A stretch of 64,000 nt of DNA. Origin: Siphonodentalium dalli. Lineage: Eukaryota > Mollusca > Scaphopoda > Gadilida > Siphonodentaliidae. Of the stretch, positions 2,287 through 63,110 are shown one piece after another. A program made the position numbers and the translations under genes. Each line of letters starts with the position of its first letter. The first letter of the stretch is position 1. The notes beneath the pieces are model-generated. The model did not search any database, was not told the origin of the DNA, and was given only the letters and a program-made list of their open reading frames with translations. The stretch is from the NCBI GenBank assembly GCA_032622095.1, contig CP136067.1, positions 59,127,899 to 59,191,898 on the forward strand, read 5' to 3'.

Positions 2287-3869
2287 TATACCGGGGGGGG
2301 GGGTCATCCACTTTTTTCCATACATTAGGCCGGGGTGGGTGGGTGGTTCAGCTGCGAAACAGTAACTTTTTTCCTGAGTGGTCGCAATTTTTTCCTCTTA
2401 CAACATTTCTTCAATATAAATGCCTCAAAGTGTTCAGCATCATTGTTAAGGTGTGTATGACACTTAGGGCAGTGCTTAGGGTGTAGTTAGTGTGGATATA
2501 GGCATGATGCTTCTCAGAAATCCAGATTACGAACCAAATCTCAGGAATTCGCCTTTTACATCCGATCACATTGCCATGTACCAATGCTACTGGTTCCAGA
2601 TGAAAATGGACAGTTATGTAGCACATGAATAAACTTTAATGTAAATAAAATGAAAAAAGCTATTCATTTATAGCATTAATTTTACTCATTATACCTGATC
2701 AGACCAGATAACCCAGTCAAAATTGTATCGGAACTTGGCATGGGACTGTAGACTGCAACAATGCATATCACTGAGACAACAATCTTGAGATGGTGGGACC
2801 CAGATAAAAGATTGGGCGAGCATACATAGAACTTGATTGTGTAGATATGGAGAAGGCTGCTAAGTGGAATAAATAAAATCAGAACAGATGAATGAAAAGA
2901 AGGGAGAGAAAATATAATATAACTTAATATATATGCAAGTCTAAATATAATGTGCTGGTCATCAGCAAAATGATCGAAGTCTGCAGAAGGCGAATTTGGC
3001 GATACTACCCGGTATAGCATCAACACATTCAACCTCTAACAACCTCATTCTATTTTGGTCTCGACCAACCATGGAGAACTAGCTGCAGATGAGGGTCACA
3101 TATGGTGAATTTCGTAATGCTATAGCCCACTATGCTGGGTAGCATCACTAAACTCACCCTCCTTGGAGCTTATTCTGCCGACTGCATATGACCGTCTTAT
3201 TTTCAAGTTTCTATTTACAGGCAGTACATGTATTTGTCTGAGTGTTTGACCTGGGTCTGGCCTTAGCACAGTACCTAGCCCAAGATCTCAGCTCATGGAA
3301 ATGAAAATTAGTTTTGTGATACATAGTGGATTTCAGCTGAATACCTGTATTGTTGGAGAGTTAATTGCCAGGTGGTGTTGCCCTAATAATTTTTTCAAAA
3401 ATCATAATTGACATAAATTCATGTGATACTATGGGACACATCTAAAATTACACTTGCTGAGATGAAAAGAAGGTACACTAATGCTTTTATACTTATTTAC
3501 ATGTATAATGAGCTACCTTAGACAATATTTGGGGAAGAAACAATCAATAATTTACTGATCAGCACATGTATTCTGTGTGTTATTTTGGATTTTTCCAAGT
3601 TTTTTTTTAGAACCTGTTTCGTGTTATTACAAAAGACTGGAATGACTTAGAAGAACCAGAAATGGAAATAGGGTAACTGTAATACTGACCATCAAGCTTA
3701 AATGGTGTGATATTACAGATTTGGAGGTAAAAAGGGGGTGGGTACCCCGCATGAAATTGGAAAAAATATTTTTCCCTTCAAATAGGGGGGTGGTGGGTAC
3801 CCAAGAGCCGGAAAAAAGTTTTTTCAGCCTAATGTCATGGCACTTTTTTTCCGACCCCCCTGCTTATAC
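2287..3869. mobile_element. Possible TIR element with G-rich ends
   Basis: The left end (TTATACC, eleven Gs, TCATCCACTTTTTTCC...ACATTAGGC) and the reverse complement of the right end (TATAAGCAGGGGGGTC, GGAAAAAAAGTGCC, ACATTAGGCTG) correspond with gaps over about 50 bp. The interior is AT-rich with no coding sequence. Target duplication not found; the right boundary is approximate. Confidence 0.35.
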
Positions 3870-11301: not shown

Positions 11302-12271
11302 AATCACACTCTGTAATCACTTGAATGCGGTTTGGTGTCACGTTCTCGGTAGTTATATGTCCAGTTCTCGATGTGCATTATAACACAACACAGTCTATCA
11401 ATTAAGAAATTCTAAGAGCCCTGAAAATGCATGCAATGCTCTTTGTGACATCTTTCTCATCGCATCAGCACCTGGACTATCAGAACAGATGTAGAGAAAA
11501 TCGGGCACCTCAAAATGCCCCGTATTATGCACTACCCCACCAGACTCTGTCGCAGTCGGACATGATGGCATGATGATATTCTTTATCGAGACAGGTCAAT
11601 CCAATATTGTACAAAAAAATAATAGCACACGGTAGGAGAACGAACATCTCTCGACCTTTTCGAAAACCTAGCGCCCAATCCACCCCAGCACCGGACATGT
11701 ATATAGCGGTGTGCATATATATAGCGGTGGAAATGTCTGTAGCAGTGGGAAGGCGACTGCTCCTGGTTGGTTACCAATTAGTCTGGAGGAAATAGGGCAG
11801 TGGTGGTCACGTCAACGCAATCTGAATGGACGATAATTTGTTAATATGTACATAGATTATCTTTGAACTTGAGAGTAGACAAGTGTTAGTTTTAGTGAAA
11901 ACTATAGCAATAATTGCTGATAAAAGTAATGTTATTTTAGAGATCAGGATTTGTTGTGGTAACTCTCCAGATAGGGGCATAGGGCACTCTTGTGATACTT
12001 AGCTGGATGAGCGTGTATCCCATTTATATAATGACACCTTTCCCAGCACTTACATACAGTTTAGATAAAAAAAAACTTAAGCAAATGTGTAGGTCATAAC
12101 AGGAAATAATGGTATTCCTGTAGCATTTTATGAATGTCTATATAACACCAAGATTTTTTGTTATGACATGTCTATAGAATTTTTTCGTTTGAACATTTTC
12201 AGCCACTTCTTTTCCCCAATTTTGATTATACAAAAAATATAGGTGATCGTAACCATGCCAAGGCTACACAA
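11302..12271. other. No recognised feature
   Basis: AT-rich DNA. Short ATAGCGGTG repeats near 11703-11730 only. Confidence 0.45.
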
Positions 12272-12829
12272 TCTCATATATATTTTGAAGACCTCTGTCT
12301 GTATGTATGTTTGTTTGTTTGTTTGTTTGTCTGTCTGTCTGTCTGTCATTTATACAAATCTACGATTCTCGACCGATCGGGACGAAACTTGGTACGTGTG
12401 TGTAGTTTGACCAGGCGGTGAACGTTGTCGTATTGGCGAGCCCGTGCGGCGCCCGCTTCGCGCATGCGCAGACGAGATCTCGGAAACGGGTGGAGCTATC
12501 GACTTGAAATTTGCTATGTGAATGTATCTTGCCCCGGATACGAATTTTATCGGGTCGCCGAGCCCGTGCGACACCAGCTTCGCGCATGCGCAGACGAGAT
12601 CTCGGAAACGGGTGGAGCTATCGACTTGAAATTTGCTATGTGAATGTATCTTGCCCCGGATACGAATTTTATCGGGTCGCCGAGCCCGTGCGACGCCAGC
12701 TTCGCGCATGCGCAGACCAGATCTCGGAAACGGGTAGAGCTATCGACTTGAAATCGTCGGGCTGGGTAGAGCTATCGACTTGAAATTTGGTTTTTGAATA
12801 GCCCGGACAACGTCGGGCTCATCGGCTAG
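12272..12829 (+). mobile_element. Non-autonomous Helitron, array copy 1
   Basis: Starts TCTCATATATATTTTGAAG right after a host A (12271) and ends with the hairpin CCCGGACAACGTCGGG followed by CTCATCGG and CTAG (12826-12829). 5' TC, a 3' hairpin and CTRR, and A/T insertion are Helitron hallmarks. It holds a GTTT/CTGT simple repeat (12308-12346) and three copies of a 122-bp unit (cores at 12459, 12581, 12703). No Rep/helicase gene. Confidence 0.85.
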
Positions 12830-13376
12830 TCTCATATATATTTTGAAGACCTCTGTCTGTATGTATGTTTGTTTGTTTGTTTGTCTGTCATTAATACAAA
12901 TCTTCGATTCTCGACCGATCGGGACGAAACTTGGTACGTGTGTGTAGTTTGACCAGGCGGTGGACGTTGTCGTATCGGCGAGCCCGTGCGGCGCCCGCTT
13001 CGCGCATGCGCAGACGAGATCTCGGGAACGGGTGGAGCTATCGACTTGAAATTTGCTATGTGAATGTATCTTGCGCCGGGTACAATTTGTATCGGGTCGC
13101 CGACTCCGTGCGACGCCAGCTTCGCGCATGCGCAGACCAGATCTCGAAAACGGGTGGAGCTATCGACTTGAAATTTGGGGTGTGAATGTATCTTGCCCCG
13201 GATACGAATTTTATCGGGTCGCCGAGCCCGTGCGACGCCAGCTTCGCGCATGCGCGGGCGAGATCTCGGAAACGGGTGGAGCTATCGACTTGAAATTTGG
13301 TATGTGAATGTATCTTGCCCCGGATACGAATTTTATCGGGTCGAATAGCCCGGACAACGTCGGGCTCATCGGCTAG
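12830..13376 (+). mobile_element. Non-autonomous Helitron, array copy 2
   Basis: Begins with the same TCTCATATATATTTTGAAG directly after the CTAG of copy 1 and ends with the same hairpin and CTAG at 13373-13376. Three 122-bp units (cores at 13001, 13123, 13245). Close in length and sequence to copy 1. Confidence 0.85.
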
Positions 13377-14093
13377 TCTATTATATATTTTGAAAGATCT
13401 GTGTGTGTGTGTGTACCTGTCTGTGTGTAATCGATGGACTCGAAAATGGCCCAGCCGATTTCGATGAAACTTGGTATGTGGGGGTATTTTCGGGTCAGGA
13501 GTAACATAGGCCTATTGATTTTCAGATCCGAGGTCAACTTTTCACGTGCCGAGGTCAAATCTGTTTTTACGCCGTTTTGCGCTAATATATTTCAGTTCGG
13601 TGCTCACAAATCGATTCGATATAGCGCGAATAATAAATTGCCAGTCATATAATTTGCACGGTTAGAATCTGTGGCGCTTCATCTTTCCAATGATGCATCA
13701 CACGCCTGTGTACATTTAAAGTTTCTACCTTAATTATCGGGAAGAACGCAGGACCATGCTTCGCTCATCGAAAATCATTGCGTAAATATATTACGCCATC
13801 AACATATCGTGACGTGATCGCGTTAACTCTTAACCGGCCGATGTCACGTTAACTCATAACCGGCCGAGGTATCCGCAAATGACATTGGGCTATATATCTC
13901 GGAAACGGGTGGAGCTATCGACTTGAAATTTGGTATGTGAATGTATCTTGCCCCGGATACGAATTTTATCGGGTCGCCGAGCCCGTGCGACGCCAGCTTC
14001 GCGCATGCGCAGACCAGATCTCGGAAACGGGTGGAGCAATCGACTTGAAATTTGGTTTTTGAATAGCCCGGACGAAGTCGGGTCACCTTCTAG
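13377..14093 (+). mobile_element. Non-autonomous Helitron, array copy 3
   Basis: Starts TCTATTATATATTTTGAAAG directly after copy 2 and ends with hairpin CCCGGACGAAGTCGGG, then TCACCTT and CTAG (14090-14093). The 5' part (TGTGTGTG, ATCGATGGACTCGAAAA, GATGAAACTTGGTATGTG) differs from copies 1-2; the 3' part holds one complete 122-bp unit core (near 14000). Confidence 0.85.
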
Positions 14094-14831
14094 TCTATTA
14101 TATATTTTGGAAGATCTGTGTGTGTGTCTGTGTGTGTGTCTGTAATCGATGGACTCGAAAACGGCCTAGCCGATTTCGATGAAACTTGGTATGTGGGTGT
14201 ATTTTCGGCCAGGGGTGACATGGGCCTATTAATTTGCCCGTGCGACGTGACCTTGACCTTGAAATCGGGTAATTTCAAGGTCAAACACCCGAATATCACG
14301 GGATTTCGATGAAACTTGGTATGTGGGGGTATCTTCGGCCGGGGAGTGGCATAAACCTATTAATTTGCCCGTGCGACGTGGCCTTGACCTTGAAATCGGT
14401 CATTTCAAGGTCAAACGCCCGAATATCACGGGATTTCGATGAAACTTGGTATGTGGGGATACGTTCGTATGGGGAGTCTCATAAGCATATTCATTTGCCT
14501 GTGCGACGTGACCTTGACCTTGAAATAGGGTCAATTCAAGGTCAAATCGCCAATTTTGATGGTATTTCGACGAAATTTTATACATAGGGTTACTTTTGTC
14601 CACTGGGTGTTTTGGACGGGTCAAATCGTGACCCCGACCTGACCTTGACCTTCAAAATGATCAATTCAAGGTCAAATCGGGTGAAACCGGATGGATTTAG
14701 ACGGGTACTTTTGTCGGGTACTTTTGTTCGGGCAGTGTTTTGGACGGGTCAAATCGTGACCCCACTTGACCTTGGCCTTCAAAATAGACAATTCAAGGTC
14801 AAAGCCCGGACGAAGTCGGGTCACCTTCTAG
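14094..14831 (+). mobile_element. Non-autonomous Helitron, array copy 4
   Basis: Starts TCTATTATATATTTTGGAAG after copy 3 and ends with the same hairpin and CTAG (14828-14831), followed by host T. The interior is a tandem array of about 126 bp: GATGAAACTTGGTATGTGGG..., GCCCGTGCGACGTGACCTTGACCTTGAA..., ATTTCAAGGTCAA. Five such TGACCTTGACCTT/TCAAGGTCA blocks occur. No coding sequence. Confidence 0.85.
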
Positions 14832-15770
14832 TATTATATATAATGCATAACAACGTGTTCAGATGCCATGTAGAGTTGTGGGGAATACAGGAGGACTTTG
14901 GTAAAATGTTTTTCTGTTTAAACTTTATGTTCATCACACATGTGATCAATTCTATTTTTTAATGGCGTTTTTGGTTGCGTGTGTCGACCCTTTGTATAGC
15001 TAAAATATGATTGCTAACACGTAGTCGGGTGAACATGTCTCTTGCCGCTGACGATCGAACGTGTCTGATGTACGGTTCTACATCATAATTGTCTTTGAAA
15101 GTTCTGTAAGTTCGAAGTTTATTAGCACTATCTGGTTTGTCGTCATCGAAAATGTCTTTTTTGAACTTATTAATGTTCTGATTTTAACCTTTCATTTATT
15201 ATGTGATCTCTTGTGATAACTATCCAGTTTTCAATGACTGATTATTTGCACATTGAGTCATTCTATAATATGCCTTCATATATACCCATTTTATGACAAC
15301 GATAATCACTGGTAATCAGTTTAAAATGGCAGATCGCATTAATTGTTCATACAAGACGAGAACGTCCATAATGATTTGGATATTGAAGATAACGACCACT
15401 ATATAATTCGTTAGATGGCCAAACGTGTCTTTATTTCGTCAGTAACAGCATGTTTAAACAATTTAAAACTGATGAATTGCGAAACATTCATTGGATTTTG
15501 GTGTGCATAGTTTTCGAAGAGGAGGAAGCCACTTCGCCTCGTGGCCAATATTCGTTGTCGTCCAAAAAGATATACACATAAACATAAAAAACACTTCGCG
15601 TTTAAATGTCCTATCGTCTTCTTGTGACCAGCTACTCACGAATTATAGTTATATATAGCTAGGCGGCACCGTATTGGCAAATACGTCGTGTATTATCATG
15701 TTTGGCCGTGATGTGCCCCTGGAGTAGAATTTTTCACACAAAGGAAAGGCCACATATCTCACAGTTAAAT
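14832..15770. other. No recognised feature
   Basis: AT-rich DNA with no exon-like frame or repeat end identified. Confidence 0.45.
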
Positions 15771-22937: not shown

Positions 22938-23239
22938 TTATATATATGCCACAGTCGCATGCTCTAATTGATATGTTATACAAAATGGTCACTCCAAACA
23001 TTCATTGATTTATATATATGCCACAGTCGCAGTGCTATAATTGATATGTTATACAAAATGGTCACTCCAAACATTCATTGATTTATATATATGCCACAGT
23101 CGCAGTGCTCTAATTGATATGTTATACAAAATGGTCACTCCAAACATTCATTGATTTATATATATGCCACAGTCGCAGTGCTCTTATTGATATGTTATAC
23201 AAAATGGTCACTCCAAACATTCATTGATTTATATATATC
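22938..23239. repeat. Tandem repeat, period about 71 bp, four copies
   Basis: Unit TTATATATATGCCACAGTCG..., TTGATATGTTATACAAAATG, GTCACTCCAAACATTCATTG, repeated four times with a few differences. No other feature in the flanks. Confidence 0.9.
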
Positions 23240-41019: not shown

Positions 41020-41344
41020 TCGTCTTCACGTAACCTTATATGACATGTATGCGCGCTATAGGTTAAGTATACTACCCATTGGTAGTATATATAACCAGAT
41101 ATATGTAAGAATTATAATGCAATCTAATTTATTTGTCACCAAAGTTCTCAGTGAAGAGAAATATTTAGATCATGTATCCATTTTTCCACAGGAATTCTTG
41201 AAGATTTTTCGCCACCTGTGCAACATGTGACAGCTTAGAACACGATAGTCACCACAAAGTGCCTTCATCCGACATCGACGATAGATTCTGATTGGTCTCT
41301 GGAGTTCACTCCCTTAGTTACATGTGCCACTTAGCATCTAGCCG
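41020..41344. promoter_or_regulatory. Candidate bidirectional promoter / 5' UTR
   Basis: The 325-bp gap between the divergent ATGs at 41019 (minus) and 41345 (plus). An inverted CCAAT box (ATTGG, 41291-41295, in GATTGGTC) sits 50 bp before the RASEF-like start codon. No convincing TATA box at a fitting distance. The promoter role is inferred from the arrangement only. Confidence 0.3.
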
Positions 41345-41670
41345 ATGGATGATAACCAAGTTGGACTCTTATTCAAAGCTTGTGACGTAGATGGGTCCGG
41401 ATACATCGACAAAGATGAGCTGTCTGGTATTTGCTCTGAGCTCTCATCTGATGACCTTCAGGACGTGTTCAAGGAATTGGACGTAGACGGTGATGGCCGG
41501 ATCAGCCTCACCGAGTTCGCTAAAGGATTCAAGGAGATCAGCGAGTCTCGAATCGAGGACAACCGAAAGAAACGAAGACAACGTCTAAAAAGCATTGACG
41601 TCCTTAACGATGACGTCAGTGAAGGATACAGCGACACTATTCTCGATGACGGACTGAAGGCATTATCATG
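41345..41670 (+). CDS. RASEF: RASEF-like exon 1: start codon and two EF-hands
   Basis: Calcium-binding N-terminus. The ATG at 41345 is preceded in frame by a TAG at 41339-41341, so this is the first possible in-frame Met. EF loop 1 is residues 14-25 (DVDGSGYIDKDE) and loop 2 is residues 46-57 (DVDGDGRISLTE). Both keep D/D/S-or-D at positions 1, 3 and 5, the Gly at 6, the Ile at 8 and the Glu at 12, so both should bind calcium. A basic segment (about residues 72-85) follows. The exon ends TCATG with donor gtttgt at 41671, leaving phase 2; the open frame continues about 90 bases into the intron, but that part has no family resemblance. Confidence 0.92.
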
Positions 41671-42139
41671 GTTTGTATACATACGTTATCATCCTATAAC
41701 AAAACATGGGTGCAAAGATGCATGCCTGTATGGCGGTGTGGTTGTAACGTATATATAAGAAAAATATTAGGGCCACTTCCTAATGGCGCGCACCGAACGC
41801 GGCAGAAGCGACAAAATGTGCGCCATAGTCGAGCGTCGAAAGCGACAAATTGTGCGACTATCTATATGAATGTCGCATGTTTTGTCGCTTTCGGAGCGCG
41901 CAAAAACATGCAACATTTCGTATGTTTTGGCGCGCACCGAAAGCGACAAAACATTCAACATGCAACATTATGTCGTATATTTTGTCACGACTAATGCCGC
42001 ATAATTTGTCGCTTCTGGTGCTTTCGGCGCGCCAAAACATTATACATTATCGCATGTTTTGGCGGCGCCGAAAGCGACATAAGCGCCAAACATATGCGAT
42101 CTTATGGCGCACATTTTGTCGCTTCTATATATATATATC

Positions 42140-42172
<33 letters not shown>

Positions 42173-45100
42173 CTTTCGGCGCGCCAGAAGCGACATTAGG
42201 AAGTGGCCCTGATAGTATTCCATAGTATGAACAATATGTGTGCGCGTCTAGACATTTGTCGCTTTCGGCGGTTTCCTCGTTTGTTGGCTTCCATATTCCC
42301 CGCACCCATTCTAGGTTGGCCCTAACATTATTCCATATATATAGGACTAGCAGGTTAGCCCGCCACTGGCGGCAATAGTCAGAAACATGACAATTTTTAA
42401 GTTTTAATTAATTTTTTTAATTAATTTAATTTTTTGTTTTTCAATGAGTTAATTTTTTGGTTTTTCAATGAGTTAATTGTGCCTTTTTAATTCGATTTTT
42501 CGGTCGATCCATTAATTAATTAAACCCGTACAGGACCGGGCTACTCAAAAACCAAATTTCAAGTCGATAGCTCCACCCGTTTCCGAGATCTGGTCTGCGC
42601 ATGCGCGAAGCTGGCGTCGCACGGGCTCCGACCGGGCTACTCAAAAACCAAATTTCAAGTCGATAGCTCCACCCGTTTCCGAGATCTGGTCTGCGCATGC
42701 GCGAAGCTGGCGTCGCACGGGCTCGGCGACCCGATAAAATTCGTATTCGGGGCAAGATACATTCACATACCAAATTTCAAGTCGATAGCTCCACCCGTTT
42801 CCGATATCTCGTCTGCGCATGCGCTGCACGGGCGTCGCACGGGCTCGCCAATACGACAGCGACGACCACCTGGTCAAACTACACTCACGTACCAAGTTTC
42901 GTCCCGATCGGTCGAGGTGTTGGTATCTGATGCAAAAGACGAAATTGTGAGTGTTGGTCAATAGTCCCCGTCGTGAACCCCATCATCGCAAAGAGCGGAC
43001 AGTCAATTAATCCCGTCCTGAACCTCCATCACCAACGCGACGTAAACATGTGTTGCGTTCTAAAAATAGGAAAGCACTTTCTCTCTGCATAATAAATTTC
43101 GAGCGATAACGTTTGCGTAAATACGAAATTGTGAGTGTTGGTTTGTAACCGGGATTTCTGAGAAGCATTATGCCTATAACTACCCCCCCCCCCAAGCCCT
43201 GACCTAAGTGTCATACATACTATAACAATGATGTTGTAAGAGTACTATAGCATCCAATAAATCTCCCCGCATAGGAAAGCACTCAATGTTCCCGTATAAC
43301 TCTGCAGATGCTAATAACGTTGAATGGGAAACAGACGCTCTTTATAGAGATGCGTCAAAAACAAACGCTCATTAAATAATCACTTGATTAACCCACGCCG
43401 TGCCTTTGCGGTGATTTGGGAGTGGGTAAAGGGTGCTCAGAGCTTCTCCAAAACGCGACAACTACGGTGTTCGTGGTTTTTTACACTTATATACGAAATT
43501 TGAGCTCGATATGTGCAGTCGTTTTCGATTCTATAAAGTACACACACACATAAATACGGAAGTCTCAAAATATATAGTATAGATGAAGCAGCCAGACATT
43601 CACATATGTAAGCCAACCGTATATGGTAAAATCAAGCTTTCGCACTCAGTCACAAACCTTTAGATGCATACGTACGTGTCAGACATGCTTTTTGTTGGAA
43701 CCAAGACCGAATAGAAACTAATTTGAACACAAGCTGGTTATTTGGTCCCATATTAGTAGAGAGGGTATATAGTGGATTGGGGTGAATATTAATTCTAAAA
43801 ACAAAATCATCACAAACGCGGGGTGGGGGGGGGGGGGGGGGGGGGGCTGAAACATTTTGTCCAATGCCAGTTATTTATAAGTGACATCTGTTTCTAGCCA
43901 GGAGAAGGTTATTGAGTTATACCAGAAGCTACATTCGTCGGAGTATGTTGGTCTTGTTCCACAATTCGAAAACATCATCTATGACATCGTTCGTGACGTT
44001 AAGCAGTATTCACAAGACAACAGCCGGCTAGAAACTTCACTCAACCAGTGAGTATACAAACGGATTAAACTCAAGACGATTGGTTATATATGTGTGCAGG
44101 GATGTGGACATGCACGTAGTTTGGAGGGGATTTGAGTCACAATTTTGGTCACAGGAGCTGGAAATGTCACATCAGACCAACAACAATTAGACATTTAAGA
44201 CCGAAATACGTTCATTTTGTGCTGATAGTTTAATTGTCCAGGCAATTTTTAGTATAAAGTATGCTTCTTATCTAAATAATTCAACATGTTCCTATTTTCA
44301 GTCGAAATTTTAGACCAAAATGACATCAGTTGGAAATTTTCCAACTTTAGGTTGGAATTTTCCTACTAGTTGGATAGTTGGAAACTAAACTATTAGCCTC
44401 TAGCCACGCCTCTGGTTACATGGTAAACTATCATTTTAGTTACATATCTATATATATTCTGATTATATATGATAATTTTCCATCAAAACCAGAGGATTTT
44501 ATTTTTTTATTTCGTTATAACATGTTTATCTATTGCGCATATTCCAAAAACACAAACCGGTTGAACAAAATCATATGCATGTACGATATATTTTGAATAG
44601 TTTTATCATGCATACATGGTACATACACCACCGGATACATGTAACATGATTCCATATGGCCGAAATATGTGTACACCCAAACTTATTATTGCGTTTTTCT
44701 ACCTTGTAATTGATTAGTATTTGTCATTTAATTTAGCTATAAGTGCTTTCACACTTTATTTCTTATTTAGACGCCGTCTGATCCAGATTTTGCTTTCCGC
44801 CTTATTAATTTACCACACAACTAAACGTTTCAGATTAAAAACACGCCATGACAAACATATGCAAAATGTGGAAGAGGAGATGGAAAATGAGGTTCGGAAA
44901 GTAGAAATGAAGATAAGAGAAGAGGTAAGCTCAAATCTGCACCAACGGCGTTGAAATACGTATGTACAAACTGTAACACACAGGATCATGTATAAGATGG
45001 GATGCTGTATAGGTGCGGCGGCATCTCATTTATGAAAGGAAGGAACCGCTGAAGAGTGTGAAGCAGTATGTTTGAGGGAGGACATTTGTTTTTATTTGCG

Positions 45101-48100
45101 TGGTTGCAGAATGTATACATGTATTATCTGAACATGTATGAATTATAGAAATACGCACTTCGCCCACCATGACTCATCTTATTAACGCCACCGGTGTATT
45201 CTGTGCTTGAAAATATAATAACCACTGGTCCAATGGGGGAATAGGTCGATGTAAAAGCTCTAGTGGGACTCCTAATGGGTCTCGTTAAAAGCTGTAGTCT
45301 TACCCCGAATGCGCTATCAATAATGGTTATTTTTGTGTTTTTTGTTATAAGATATGCCAAAAAATAATATGTAAGTCCTATATTTGATTTCAGTATACTT
45401 TATTTTACTTTAGTTTATTTATTTAGTTTAGTAAAAAGGAAATGGTATTCAATTAACTGATAGCCTGAAAATAATTTATAACCCATTGGGAGCCCCTGGG
45501 GTATAGTGAAGTGAATTATGGGTAATTTTAATTGTAGTGCGCATGCCTGTTCTGTTGGAGTAATCGCGATCTTTTTTATTTTCTGGTCATATACACAATG
45601 TGTTTGTACCGATGCATGTATCGTGACTCGACTCGTTTTCGTGGTCACGTAGGCCCTATATAACCTATGATCACGAAAACGAGCAGAGTCGCGAAATAAG
45701 ATAGAATTCCCGGAATCGTACATTCACTTTCAATAGTATACATTCTCTGAATCTGCGGAATTCCCAGAATTGTACTTTCACTTTCAATAGGATTCTCCGA
45801 ATTTGATAGAATTTTCACTTTCACTGTTCATTTTTACCACGCAAAGCGACCTTAGTTGACACATATATATGACACACTGGCTGAGTCCATGACAAATAGT
45901 TTATGTAGCATTGCTTCTTTCATTTAATTAAAGCTCACCTCGTAAAAACGCATGTTAATCGTATTTGTTTACAAATTGCATTTCAGTTTTGACAAACTAT
46001 TTATTGAGGCAGAAGTGAGTTTGTTTGAAGCGAATGTTATCTCACTTGACCCCTGAACTGAAAATTTCCGTAACCGGTTCGTACAAAGATAATTGATAAC
46101 GGCAATATTTAATAAATTATTTACCTTGTTATGTCAAACGTTCTTGATTATTATACATAGATGGCCAATTACTTATAGTATATTAGCCTGCGAATGTGCA
46201 AAACAAAATTGTGTCCTAAAACCAAACAGATATCAGTATAATTATCAATTGCTTTATCGATAAAACCACGTGCGTCTTGTTTCTATTCTCGTAGGATGCC
46301 TTGATCCTGGTAATAAACATTCTGATTCATTGTAGACGGGAGCTATTTATCTCGCAAGATCGCGCGTTTTGTTTACATATTGGAGTGGGGAAAAAACAGG
46401 ATTTGGTTACGGTATATATACAGTTCTGACCGATTTATTCTGAGATTTCTTATTATAAAGCGTTTAGTGGCCAAGTTATGAAATAATTAATCGCACGCAC
46501 AAACTGGCATTTAATGGGGTCTGTTTAAAAATTTGGTGATGATAATTTTGTGCGGAATTAGGGTAGTATCAAAATTGGCAAATTTAAGGACGGAAACGGC
46601 ACATGGACATATTATTTTTTTATTTTTTCTGTTGGTCATATTAGGTCCGAAGAGTCATTCTTCACAATTGACTTGGTTAGATAGTTCCAGCATTCACAAG
46701 GAATCGAGCATAGCCCGGACATTAACACTGTCGCCTGTGCCATGTGGAGAATAATTGGTGTACTGTAATTAACGCCACCGGTGTATACTGTGCTTGAAAA
46801 TATAATATCCACTGGTGTTATGCGGGATTAGGTCGATGTAAAAGCTGCGAATGGGTCGCTTTAAAAGCTGTAGAGTTACCCCGATTCGGTATCCTCAATA
46901 AAATAGTCCGGCACAGATTAGCACATGTGCTGATATTGATAATTACCACACACTTTGGAAAGCATGCGGTTGTGTGGTAATCAGGGATGGATTTCGACGA
47001 CATTTGATACCTAGGGATAGTTTTGTCCGGGGAGTGTTTTGGTGGGCCAAATCGTGACCCCGACCTGACCTTGACCTTCAAAATGGTCAATTCAAGGTCA
47101 AATCTGGTAAAACGTACGGATTGCGACGAAATTTGATACCTAGGGTTACTTTTCTCCGGGGAGTGTTTTGGACGGGTCAAATCATGACCCTGACCTGGCC
47201 TTGACTTTAAAATTAGTCAATTCAAGGTCAAATCGCGCCTTTCGCCGGAAAGAAGATGGGAACAGCCCGGACGAAGTCGGGTCCACCAGAGACAGCTTGA
47301 AGAATGTAATGTATAACACGAGAAACGGGAAAACGTGGTATATGGAAGTATCCAAATTTCCCACATGGAATTTGAAAGCTAGTTTATATTATAATTATAT
47401 TATAATTTATATTTATGGCTAATAATATGATCTTGGTGGCGTTACCATTTCTGACTATGGTTTTCTTGCATATATTTGCGAATGCCTGTATGTCGGTCGG
47501 TCTGTCCGCTATATAAATCCAAGGCGGAACATCTCATTGAGCTATATAGTCCAAAGGAGTCTGGCAGGGGTAACCTATTACGAGGAAGATAATGTTTCCG
47601 GTTAAACATTTCTAAAGTGATGTCACAAAATTACACTAACTTATATATTATATATAGTCAGATCCATGATATATAGAAAATCAAACGTTATTGTTTAAAT
47701 ATATATATAAGTGGCGCCACCGGAGTCAGGGATGGGTTTGAGAGTGGGGTTCCGATTTTTTTTTTTTTTTGAATAAATCACTTCTTTCTTTCACTGTCCT
47801 TCAAGTTTATGAACATTAAATGTGAGCCCTCCTTGCGTATACTTGCCTTGAGGACTGATTGAAAGGCTACGCTGAGGAATCTTTTAAGTATACCAATGCT
47901 GATAAATGAATTAAGAAATAGCCATTAATATAAGTGGCACCTTTCGGGACATGAATGGGGTTCAGGGCGCGAGCACCAAAATTGTAATTTTTAAAAAGTG
48001 TTTGCGGCGATTTTCTTACAAATTAATATATATAAGCTTCTCCACGATCCGATTAATCAAATTGTGTGGTTTAAAGTTTCCAAACTGATGCTGACAGGAA

Positions 48101-62460: not shown

Positions 62461-62799
62461 GTAAGGATTTCGCGGTTAGTATCTGCCATATTATTTACAA
62501 TCATTGGTATTAGAGAACACAGGATAAGGTCGTCGTCAAAATGATATGGTCACATCGAACCAACTCAGTAAATGGCCCGCGCTTCTATTAATGTATTAAT
62601 GCCATTGCAGACAGATAATATAGATATATATACAGATATATATAACATTTCGCTATCAGCAAATTTCTTTTCCATGTTCATGAATATCACACACATAGAA
62701 AACTAATACAATTTAACCAGTTAGACACTTTGTTCTGAAGTAAAGGGTTTGACATTGTCTATATATATATACGAAGCCCGGGAAGTGAAGATTTCGATA

Positions 62800-63110
62800 T
62801 ATCGAAATAAGATTTCGTTACGAAATAAGATATCGTTATAACGAAATCAGATTTCATTATAACTAAATAAGATTCCGTTATAACGACATTAGATATCGTT
62901 ATAACGAAATAATATTTCATTATAACTAAATAAGATTCCGTTATAACGACATAAGATATCGTTATAACGAAATAAGATTTCGTTATAACGAAATGCGACT
63001 TCGTTATAACTAAATAATATATCGTTATAACGAATTGCGATTTCGATATATCGAAATAATATTTCGTTATAATGTAATAATATTTATATATAACGAAATA
63101 TATAGCGAAG
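62800..63110. repeat. Minisatellite of CGTTATAACG palindromes
   Basis: About fifteen units of roughly 18-20 bp such as GATTTCGTTATAACGAAATA and GATATCGTTATAACGA. Each unit is self-complementary. The 121-codon minus-strand frame across it is an artefact. It lies just after exon 12 of the RASEF-like gene. Confidence 0.85.

Follow-up and report, generated by a model that had tools for sequence, protein, structure and literature searches.

The array and its surroundings

The stretch of Siphonodentalium dalli DNA analysed here (64 kb, located at C7:59127899 in the assembly; hereafter the window) contains four Helitron-like units, U1 to U4, of 558, 547, 717 and 738 bp. In the window sequence the units abut exactly, and each junction reads CTAG/TC (the slash marks the point of joining). 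The features are as follows.

12271..12271, + strand: host A at the left border, which forms an A/T site with the first T of U1
12272..12829, + strand: U1, a-type non-autonomous Helitron, 558 bp, with three 122-bp modules
12830..13376, + strand: U2, a-type non-autonomous Helitron, 547 bp, with three 122-bp modules
13377..14093, + strand: U3, 717 bp, with b-type ends, a unique middle and 122-bp repeat sequence
14094..14831, + strand: U4, b-type non-autonomous Helitron, 738 bp, with 130-bp repeats
14832..14847, + strand: host right flank TATTATATATAATGCA, T side of the original target (judged from the target-matrix score of the held-out flank)
42347..43583, - strand: S, solo Helitron relative, 1,237 bp, A/TCTATACTATATATTTTG...CTAG/T, with 122-bp-type modules
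46986..47290, + strand: fragment without ends, with two U4-like 130-bp-type repeats and b-type 3' hairpin sequence without adjoining CTAG

The array coordinates, unit lengths, three junctions and outer bases (A at 12271 on the left, T at 14832 on the right) given in a first-pass annotation of the window are all exact. Every unit of the array starts with TCT..ATATATTTTG and ends with CTAG. The tetramer CTAG occurs at 83 positions in the 64-kb window, and CTAGTCT is found three times on the plus strand, always at an array junction, and twice on the minus strand, both times without Helitron ends. Host sequence beside the array reads GGCTACACAA on the left and TATTATATATAATG on the right, and GGCTACACAA joined directly to TATTATATATAATG is the empty site expected by the insertion model described below. 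The canonical Helitron1-type ends (TC at the 5' end and CTRR at the 3' end) are present in all four units and in S, and the borders of the array and of S, in this one genome, are those of Helitron1-type A/T insertion without target duplication. The annotation had called the units Helitrons, which is borne out by the TC...CTAG ends, the A/T site, a strong hairpin in two of the four units and a Rep-coding stretch with the same ends elsewhere in the genome.

Two non-autonomous subfamilies are represented in the array, a by U1 and U2 and b by U3 and U4. Head identity is 97.3% (145/149) between U1 and U2 and 90.8% (129/142) between U3 and U4; the last 29 nt are identical in U3 and U4 (b-type ends), and U1 and U2 have another common pair of ends (a-type). 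A hairpin had been annotated before each CTAG. When the 3' ends were folded as single-stranded DNA, it was clear in the a-type units (U1, -6.4 kcal/mol, z = -2.0; U2, -8.8 kcal/mol, z = -2.7) but weak in the b-type units (U3, -3.3 kcal/mol, z = -0.05; U4, -4.7 kcal/mol, z = -1.2). The annotated difference between interiors is likewise right but incomplete, since 122-bp internal repeats are common to U1, U2 and U3 and U4 has 130-bp repeats. The middles of U3 and U4 are unrelated, which rules out a simple tandem duplication of the array units, as the annotation had argued. The first modules of U1 and U2 differ at one position in 70 nt and the last modules of S, U3 and U1 at one or two, while modules within U1 or within U2 differ at three to seven. 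Because the between-unit matches are closer than those within U1 or U2, divergence among the modules preceded the joining of the units.

No Rep domain was found by Pfam in 28 of the 29 window ORFs of at least 120 aa, the only matches being an EF-hand exon and one chance match under the cut-off. NCBIfam gave no match for three window ORFs, Rfam and tRNA scans of the window found nothing, and the prokaryote genomes searched held no match. Public viral contigs yielded only one chance match, in one phage-like contig and cut as two loci.

Several other features of the window were recorded. S contains two 96-bp units that are 100% alike, and its interior holds a hairpin-like 3' end (AGCCCGGTC..CGGGTT) that lacks CTAG. 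New sequence and then a new hairpin, this time with CTAG, come after it, as if a 3' end had been bypassed and replaced. Positions 2433-2556 (+) resemble positions 346-465 of S (nhmmer E = 3.6e-16) and form an interspersed piece outside the recognised units. The ORF at 41342-41758 (+) encodes an EF-hand pair (Pfam E = 8e-15) and is probably a host exon. Tandem arrays lie at 22938-23238 (73 bp, 4.1 copies, 98%) and 62788-63100 (21 bp, 15 copies, 77%).

Copies elsewhere in the genome and their neighbors

The genome (2.227 Gb, nine contigs) was searched with each unit, and 40 candidates were scored per search, out of 428 first-look candidates for U1 (the best 40) and 3371, 2103 and 4908 for the other three units; the samples therefore lean to the closest copies. 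Among those scored for U1, at least 48 full-length copies with more than 95% identity were found at 37 other loci, and their flanks were read. The base to the left of these 48 copies belongs to a CTAG in 20 cases, is A in 27 and is G in one, and the right neighbor begins with TC, as a Helitron head does, in 38 of the 48. Solo copies, for which the annotation had proposed a search, exist for U1 at L014, L024 and L029, and also at L012, where the right flank is head-like. Non-solo copies have neighbors that vary between loci. The same annotation held that the array would be one composite element or satellite if the junctions occurred only inside one fixed longer unit; instead, U1 is found alone and beside many different neighbors, and a similar a-a-b order occurs at two independent loci. 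The array as a whole was rejected as a fixed composite or satellite, since unit order varies across the loci read and the a-a-b order recurs only in part (L018 and its duplicate L035, and L027).

Relatedness was compared among 121 called units (from the 37 loci, the window and three U3 loci), 109 of which have an adjoining called unit. In this sample, which centers on U1 and U3 and so sets a limit on the closeness of the relatives that some units can find, without a bias toward other loci over the neighbor, the best relative of the 109 units was the adjoining one in only four cases, a non-adjoining unit of the same locus in 13 and a unit at another locus in 92. The 13 same-locus cases all come from L016, L025 and L028, which hold duplicated blocks that are local duplications. 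The best relatives of U1, U2, U3 and U4 lie at four different loci. From seven U3 loci, units of L050, L051 and L055 alone entered the relatedness set; L052 is unparsed in the flank count of U3-like copies as well. The outer left base among the 121 units is A (35), G (1) or T (1), and the outer right dinucleotide is TA (26), TT (8) or TC (4).

Three loci have arrangements that a concatemer would not give. At L031 a U1 copy lies within a head: the TCTA before it and the TACTATATATTTTGAGACTTCG after it together make up TCTATACTATATATTTTGAGACTTC, the initial 25 nt of S. TCTA also stands before a second unit immediately to the left, which could mean that two insertions went into one longer head. 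At L011 a U1 copy sits 2 bp before the head of another element, and at L022 another lies 2 bp from an inverted head. Divergent pairs with heads facing were seen at L022 (2 bp apart) and also at C6:27923288-27924730 (6 bp apart). Separately, an apparent b-type head without its first TC follows CTAG at L046, L026 and L116 (TATTATATATTTTGG) and at L043 (seen as TATTAT alone), and such heads are unexplained by A/T insertion.

A near 20-kb run on another contig (C1:182645141-182665255) contains about 21 near-full and three partial U3-like units. Most of them abut, and about 4 kb of the run is an unmatched stretch. An a-type tail precedes the run, another b-type head comes next after it, and the whole looks like a satellite-like tandem amplification. 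Together with the duplicated blocks at L016, L025 and L028, this run indicates that arrays can be amplified after insertion.

Subfamily order along arrays

If elements enter only at the A/T formed by a host A and the TC of a resident copy, newer subfamilies should be bordered by host sequence at their left end and by a Helitron at their right end, and older ones the reverse. Among U1 copies with discordant flanks, 20 have host DNA to their left and a Helitron to their right, and three have a Helitron to their left and no TC to their right (in one of the three, L046, a head without TC comes next on the right); L020, the copy with the G, was left out of this count, as its first TC is missing, which leaves the left side undefined. 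U4-like copies show the opposite distribution, with two in the first arrangement and 14 in the reverse (34 copies at 32 places, 26-base flanks); matches that do not span positions 1-738 and, from the discordant count, L114 (CTGG on the left, a head on the right) were left out, and L116, one of the 14, is followed by a head without TC. The difference between U1 and U4-like copies is significant (P-value = 6.2e-6, Fisher test; 1.9e-5 after removal of one duplicate per side, namely L035 and one of L086/L098).

The same order was found in whole arrays. Among 30 bounded arrays or solos, all found through U1 except L051 and L055, 12 begin with an a-type unit and end with a b-type unit (11 without this window), and none begins with b and ends with a; L013 has an a-type tail and is outside the 12. 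Of the arrays with A on the left and a strictly non-head-like right flank, nine run from a to b and none from b to a. U3-like copies at 13 parsed places are preceded by A (11), T (1) or CTAG (1), six have an exact head on the right, and U3 thus behaves like a younger kind.

Subfamily b would then be the older and the left-hand subfamily, a, the younger, if nearest-copy identity is accepted as a crude proxy of age. Among the scored candidates, the nearest other copies of U1, U2, U3 and U4 are 99.8, 98, 99 and 96% identical, a series that is not monotone along the array; U2 and U3 break the trend, so relative age can fairly be claimed only for U1 and U4, the outer units.

Part of the order recurs. 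Three loci, namely L018, its duplicate L035, and L027, match array positions 1-1976 (U1, U2 and the greater part of U3) at 91-93%. The units there are 98, 88 and 95% (L018) and 98, 87 and 95% (L027) identical to those of the array, and the second unit at both loci is U1-like, not U2. Between L018 and L027 the units are 98.2, 97.5 and 96.0% alike, and the left host flanks differ. Either preferred stacking or block movement could give this recurring order of a, a and U3-like. The whole 2,560-bp array has a full-length match at none of the 37 loci, the longest match being about 2.0 kb.

Target site and junction frequency

To the right of the elements, host DNA starts with T and continues TA-rich. 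When right flanks were first compared with heads, 12 and 11 of 16 positions matched, values reached by 20 and 44 of 2,000 shuffled-head sets. Plain AT-richness of the heads is a weak signal (16% or 7.6% of A/T sites are equally rich), so a matrix was built from host flanks instead. It comprises 25 host right flanks, after exclusion of L044, of four long TA repeats, of flanks within or close to heads and of the L012 flank, which resembles a head, and was scored on 13,117 background A/T sites of the window. Sites that score at least as high as the head number 178 for a and 181 for b (top 1.4%), while the s head lies at 12.7% and thus fits the matrix poorly. The right flank of the array, held out, outscores all 13,117 sites and that of S lies at 0.66%; in a leave-one-out comparison, 17 of the 25 flanks fall in the top 5% and the other eight range down to 53%. 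Among 5,000 shuffled heads, the real score is reached by 59 for a and 274 for b. Heads a and b are thus moderately similar to the host target.

Across the genome, 15,966 exact a-type heads were counted, of which 7,962 (49.9%) directly follow CTAG. The reversed-pattern control gave 0 for both counts.

Rep-coding relatives

A profile search of the genome with PF14214 (457 candidates, the best 150 scored) gave 151 matches, among which at least 17 frames of 1,600-1,700 aa are uninterrupted by stops within the match. Two Rep copies with 1,650-aa frames lie 8,571 bp apart on C2. One 8,571-bp stretch (C2:141790964-141799534) has an a-type head and tail and contains a 1,650-aa Rep frame at C2:141795020; an autonomous copy with the same ends had been proposed as a check of the annotation, and the Rep part of a candidate for it is hereby located in a stretch with U1-like ends. 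Between the two copies (3.9 kb read) there is one junction, from an a-type tail to an a-type head, and a further a-type tail precedes the first copy. Over its first 461 nt the second copy is 94.7% identical to U1, and for the last 33 nt before the junction the identity is 97%; the second copy ends with CTAG/TATTATATATAATG, the 14 nt that also flank the array on its right. A b-type junction lies between two Rep matches on C6 (L139), and no a-type head was found in the 2.4 kb read near the Rep copy at C5:228637272 (L140). Judged from sequence, some Rep-coding elements appear to have the ends of U1 and to stack likewise. The existence of long open Rep frames, two in copies that carry U1-type ends, makes insertion at resident heads an idea that can be tested at the bench.

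A second set of weaker PF14214 matches (about 90-93 bits), lying in very long open frames of about 2,700-2,860 aa, was also seen (e.g., C8:82475387, C8:164614114 and C1:214418025) and may represent another Helitron class.

Origin of the array

The array is, with good confidence, a stack that grew leftward through four independent insertions of non-autonomous Helitrons. U4 would have inserted first, between a host A and T. The host A together with the T of the resident 5'-TC would then constitute a new A/T site followed by a TA-rich stretch, at which the next element could land, joining its own CTAG exactly to the older TC. Repetition would yield A-U1-U2-U3-U4-T with the newest element leftmost, and the array in the window was presumably built by the same route as those at other loci. 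Serial insertion was one of two options in the annotation, and it is supported by the ordering of subfamilies along arrays, the rarity with which neighbors are best relatives and the U1 copy inside another head. Mixed subfamilies, ordered arrays and insertion inside a head argue for repeated and probably targeted insertion. We consider it about as likely as not that the family actively targets its own 5' ends, with recognition of the A/TC at which resident copies are cleaved as a place to insert; the transposase might be guided to the A/TC of resident elements or re-use its own nick there. In HUH enzymes of the IS200/IS605 kind, one recognition serves both donor cleavage and target.

The other annotated option was a rolling-circle concatemer, in which several copies arise at once, through failure to stop at a terminator or through a multimeric circle, and later diverge. 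Helraiser circles do have exact CTAG/TC junctions and the 3' end can be bypassed (PMC4778049), bypass is the explanation given for tandem arrays in Myotis and Bombyx in PMC4067079, and two neighboring pairs in our sample (L023.2/3, 98.4%, and L027.1/2, 99.5% identical) could be rolling-circle dimers. However, the middles of U3 and U4 are unrelated, the adjoining unit is the best relative in just four of 109 cases, array order tracks subfamily, and concatenation would not place a U1 copy within another head at L031, so we regard this route as improbable here and disfavor it as the main one. Still less probable is movement of a composite as a block, starting at the leftmost head, ignoring inner terminators and stopping at a later CTAG. 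The outer A and T borders, the weak b-type hairpins, the block corresponding to array positions 1-1976 at L018/L035 and L027 and the duplicated blocks at L016, L025 and L028 would suit such movement, but none of the 37 loci matches the array in full, the corresponding units at L018 and L027 are unequally similar to it (98, 87-88 and 95%) with a U1-like second unit, left host flanks differ, the four units have their best relatives at four different loci, and U1 also exists as solo copies.

Serial insertion could also proceed without guidance, through a preference for A/T followed by TA-rich sequence that heads merely happen to resemble. The flank matrix places heads a and b in the top 1.4% of A/T sites, and Helraiser prefers AT-rich DNA, most strongly on the 3' side (PMC4778049). 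Scaled from the 178 sites in the window, however, about 6 million equally good A/T sites would be expected in 2.23 Gb, against 15,966 exact a-heads (b-heads are not in this count), and yet 38 of the 48 U1 copies lie directly before a head and 49.9% of the exact a-heads come straight after CTAG. Target resemblance alone appears too weak for this frequency, which suggests that the transposase guides insertion to heads, and we hold unguided insertion to be possible but rather doubtful.

Should insertion be repeated and targeted in this way, arrays would be stacks that show the order of subfamily activity. The 5' end of the element would double as its target, and a rolling-circle transposon could build satellite-like arrays by landing on itself. 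With targeting of own 5' ends, the arrays would record insertions in order, the oldest at the right and the newest at the left, and might become the seeds of satellites. Head-to-tail Helitrons are often read as traces of concatemers, and the junctions in this genome are frequent enough for a test.

Comparison with known systems

In maize, one Helitron pair with CTAG joined to the TC of the next element and with unrelated interiors was described in 2008 (PMC2267711); the A/T of the host A and the next T is named there as one canonical route and the insertion order is left open. The junction is the same as in our arrays, but here two subfamilies and many loci are involved and an order can be proposed. 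The tandem arrays of Myotis and Bombyx mori, as cited in PMC4067079 and PMC5876387, are likewise head to tail. In those citations they are attributed to terminator bypass or rolling-circle copying, whereas most neighbors in our sample have their closest relative elsewhere. In Fusarium and Metarhizium (PMC5148889), insertion 2 bp before another 5' end and three tandem copies were reported, as found here; the cases described are single and of Helitron2 type, in contrast to the TC...CTAG ends and thousands of junctions in S. dalli.

The Helentron-type Cg_HINE of oyster (PMC7492417) is similarly a short, non-autonomous rolling-circle element with satellite-like central repeats. For Cg_HINE, TT sites are suggested and subterminal inverted repeats described, while our elements have an A/T site and CTAG. 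A Helentron/HINE (Helitron2) identity of our elements does not fit their A/T target and CTAG ends.

Helraiser/Helibat1 (PMC4778049 and PMC5876387) has the same TC/CTAG ends and an A/T target with an AT-rich 3' side. It also has a 3' hairpin 11 nt from the end, the counterpart of which is clear in U1 and U2 and weak in U3 and U4. Helraiser/Helibat1 is reported there to be without local hopping, whereas insertion in our family centers on resident 5' ends.

Head-to-tail Helitrons are known from maize, bat, silk-moth and fungi, and both explanations have been discussed in the parts of that literature covered here. Within this coverage, which does not amount to a claim of absence from print, neither subfamily ordering along arrays nor a comparable junction frequency was found. 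The new part of the present analysis is the scale and the ordering of the junctions.
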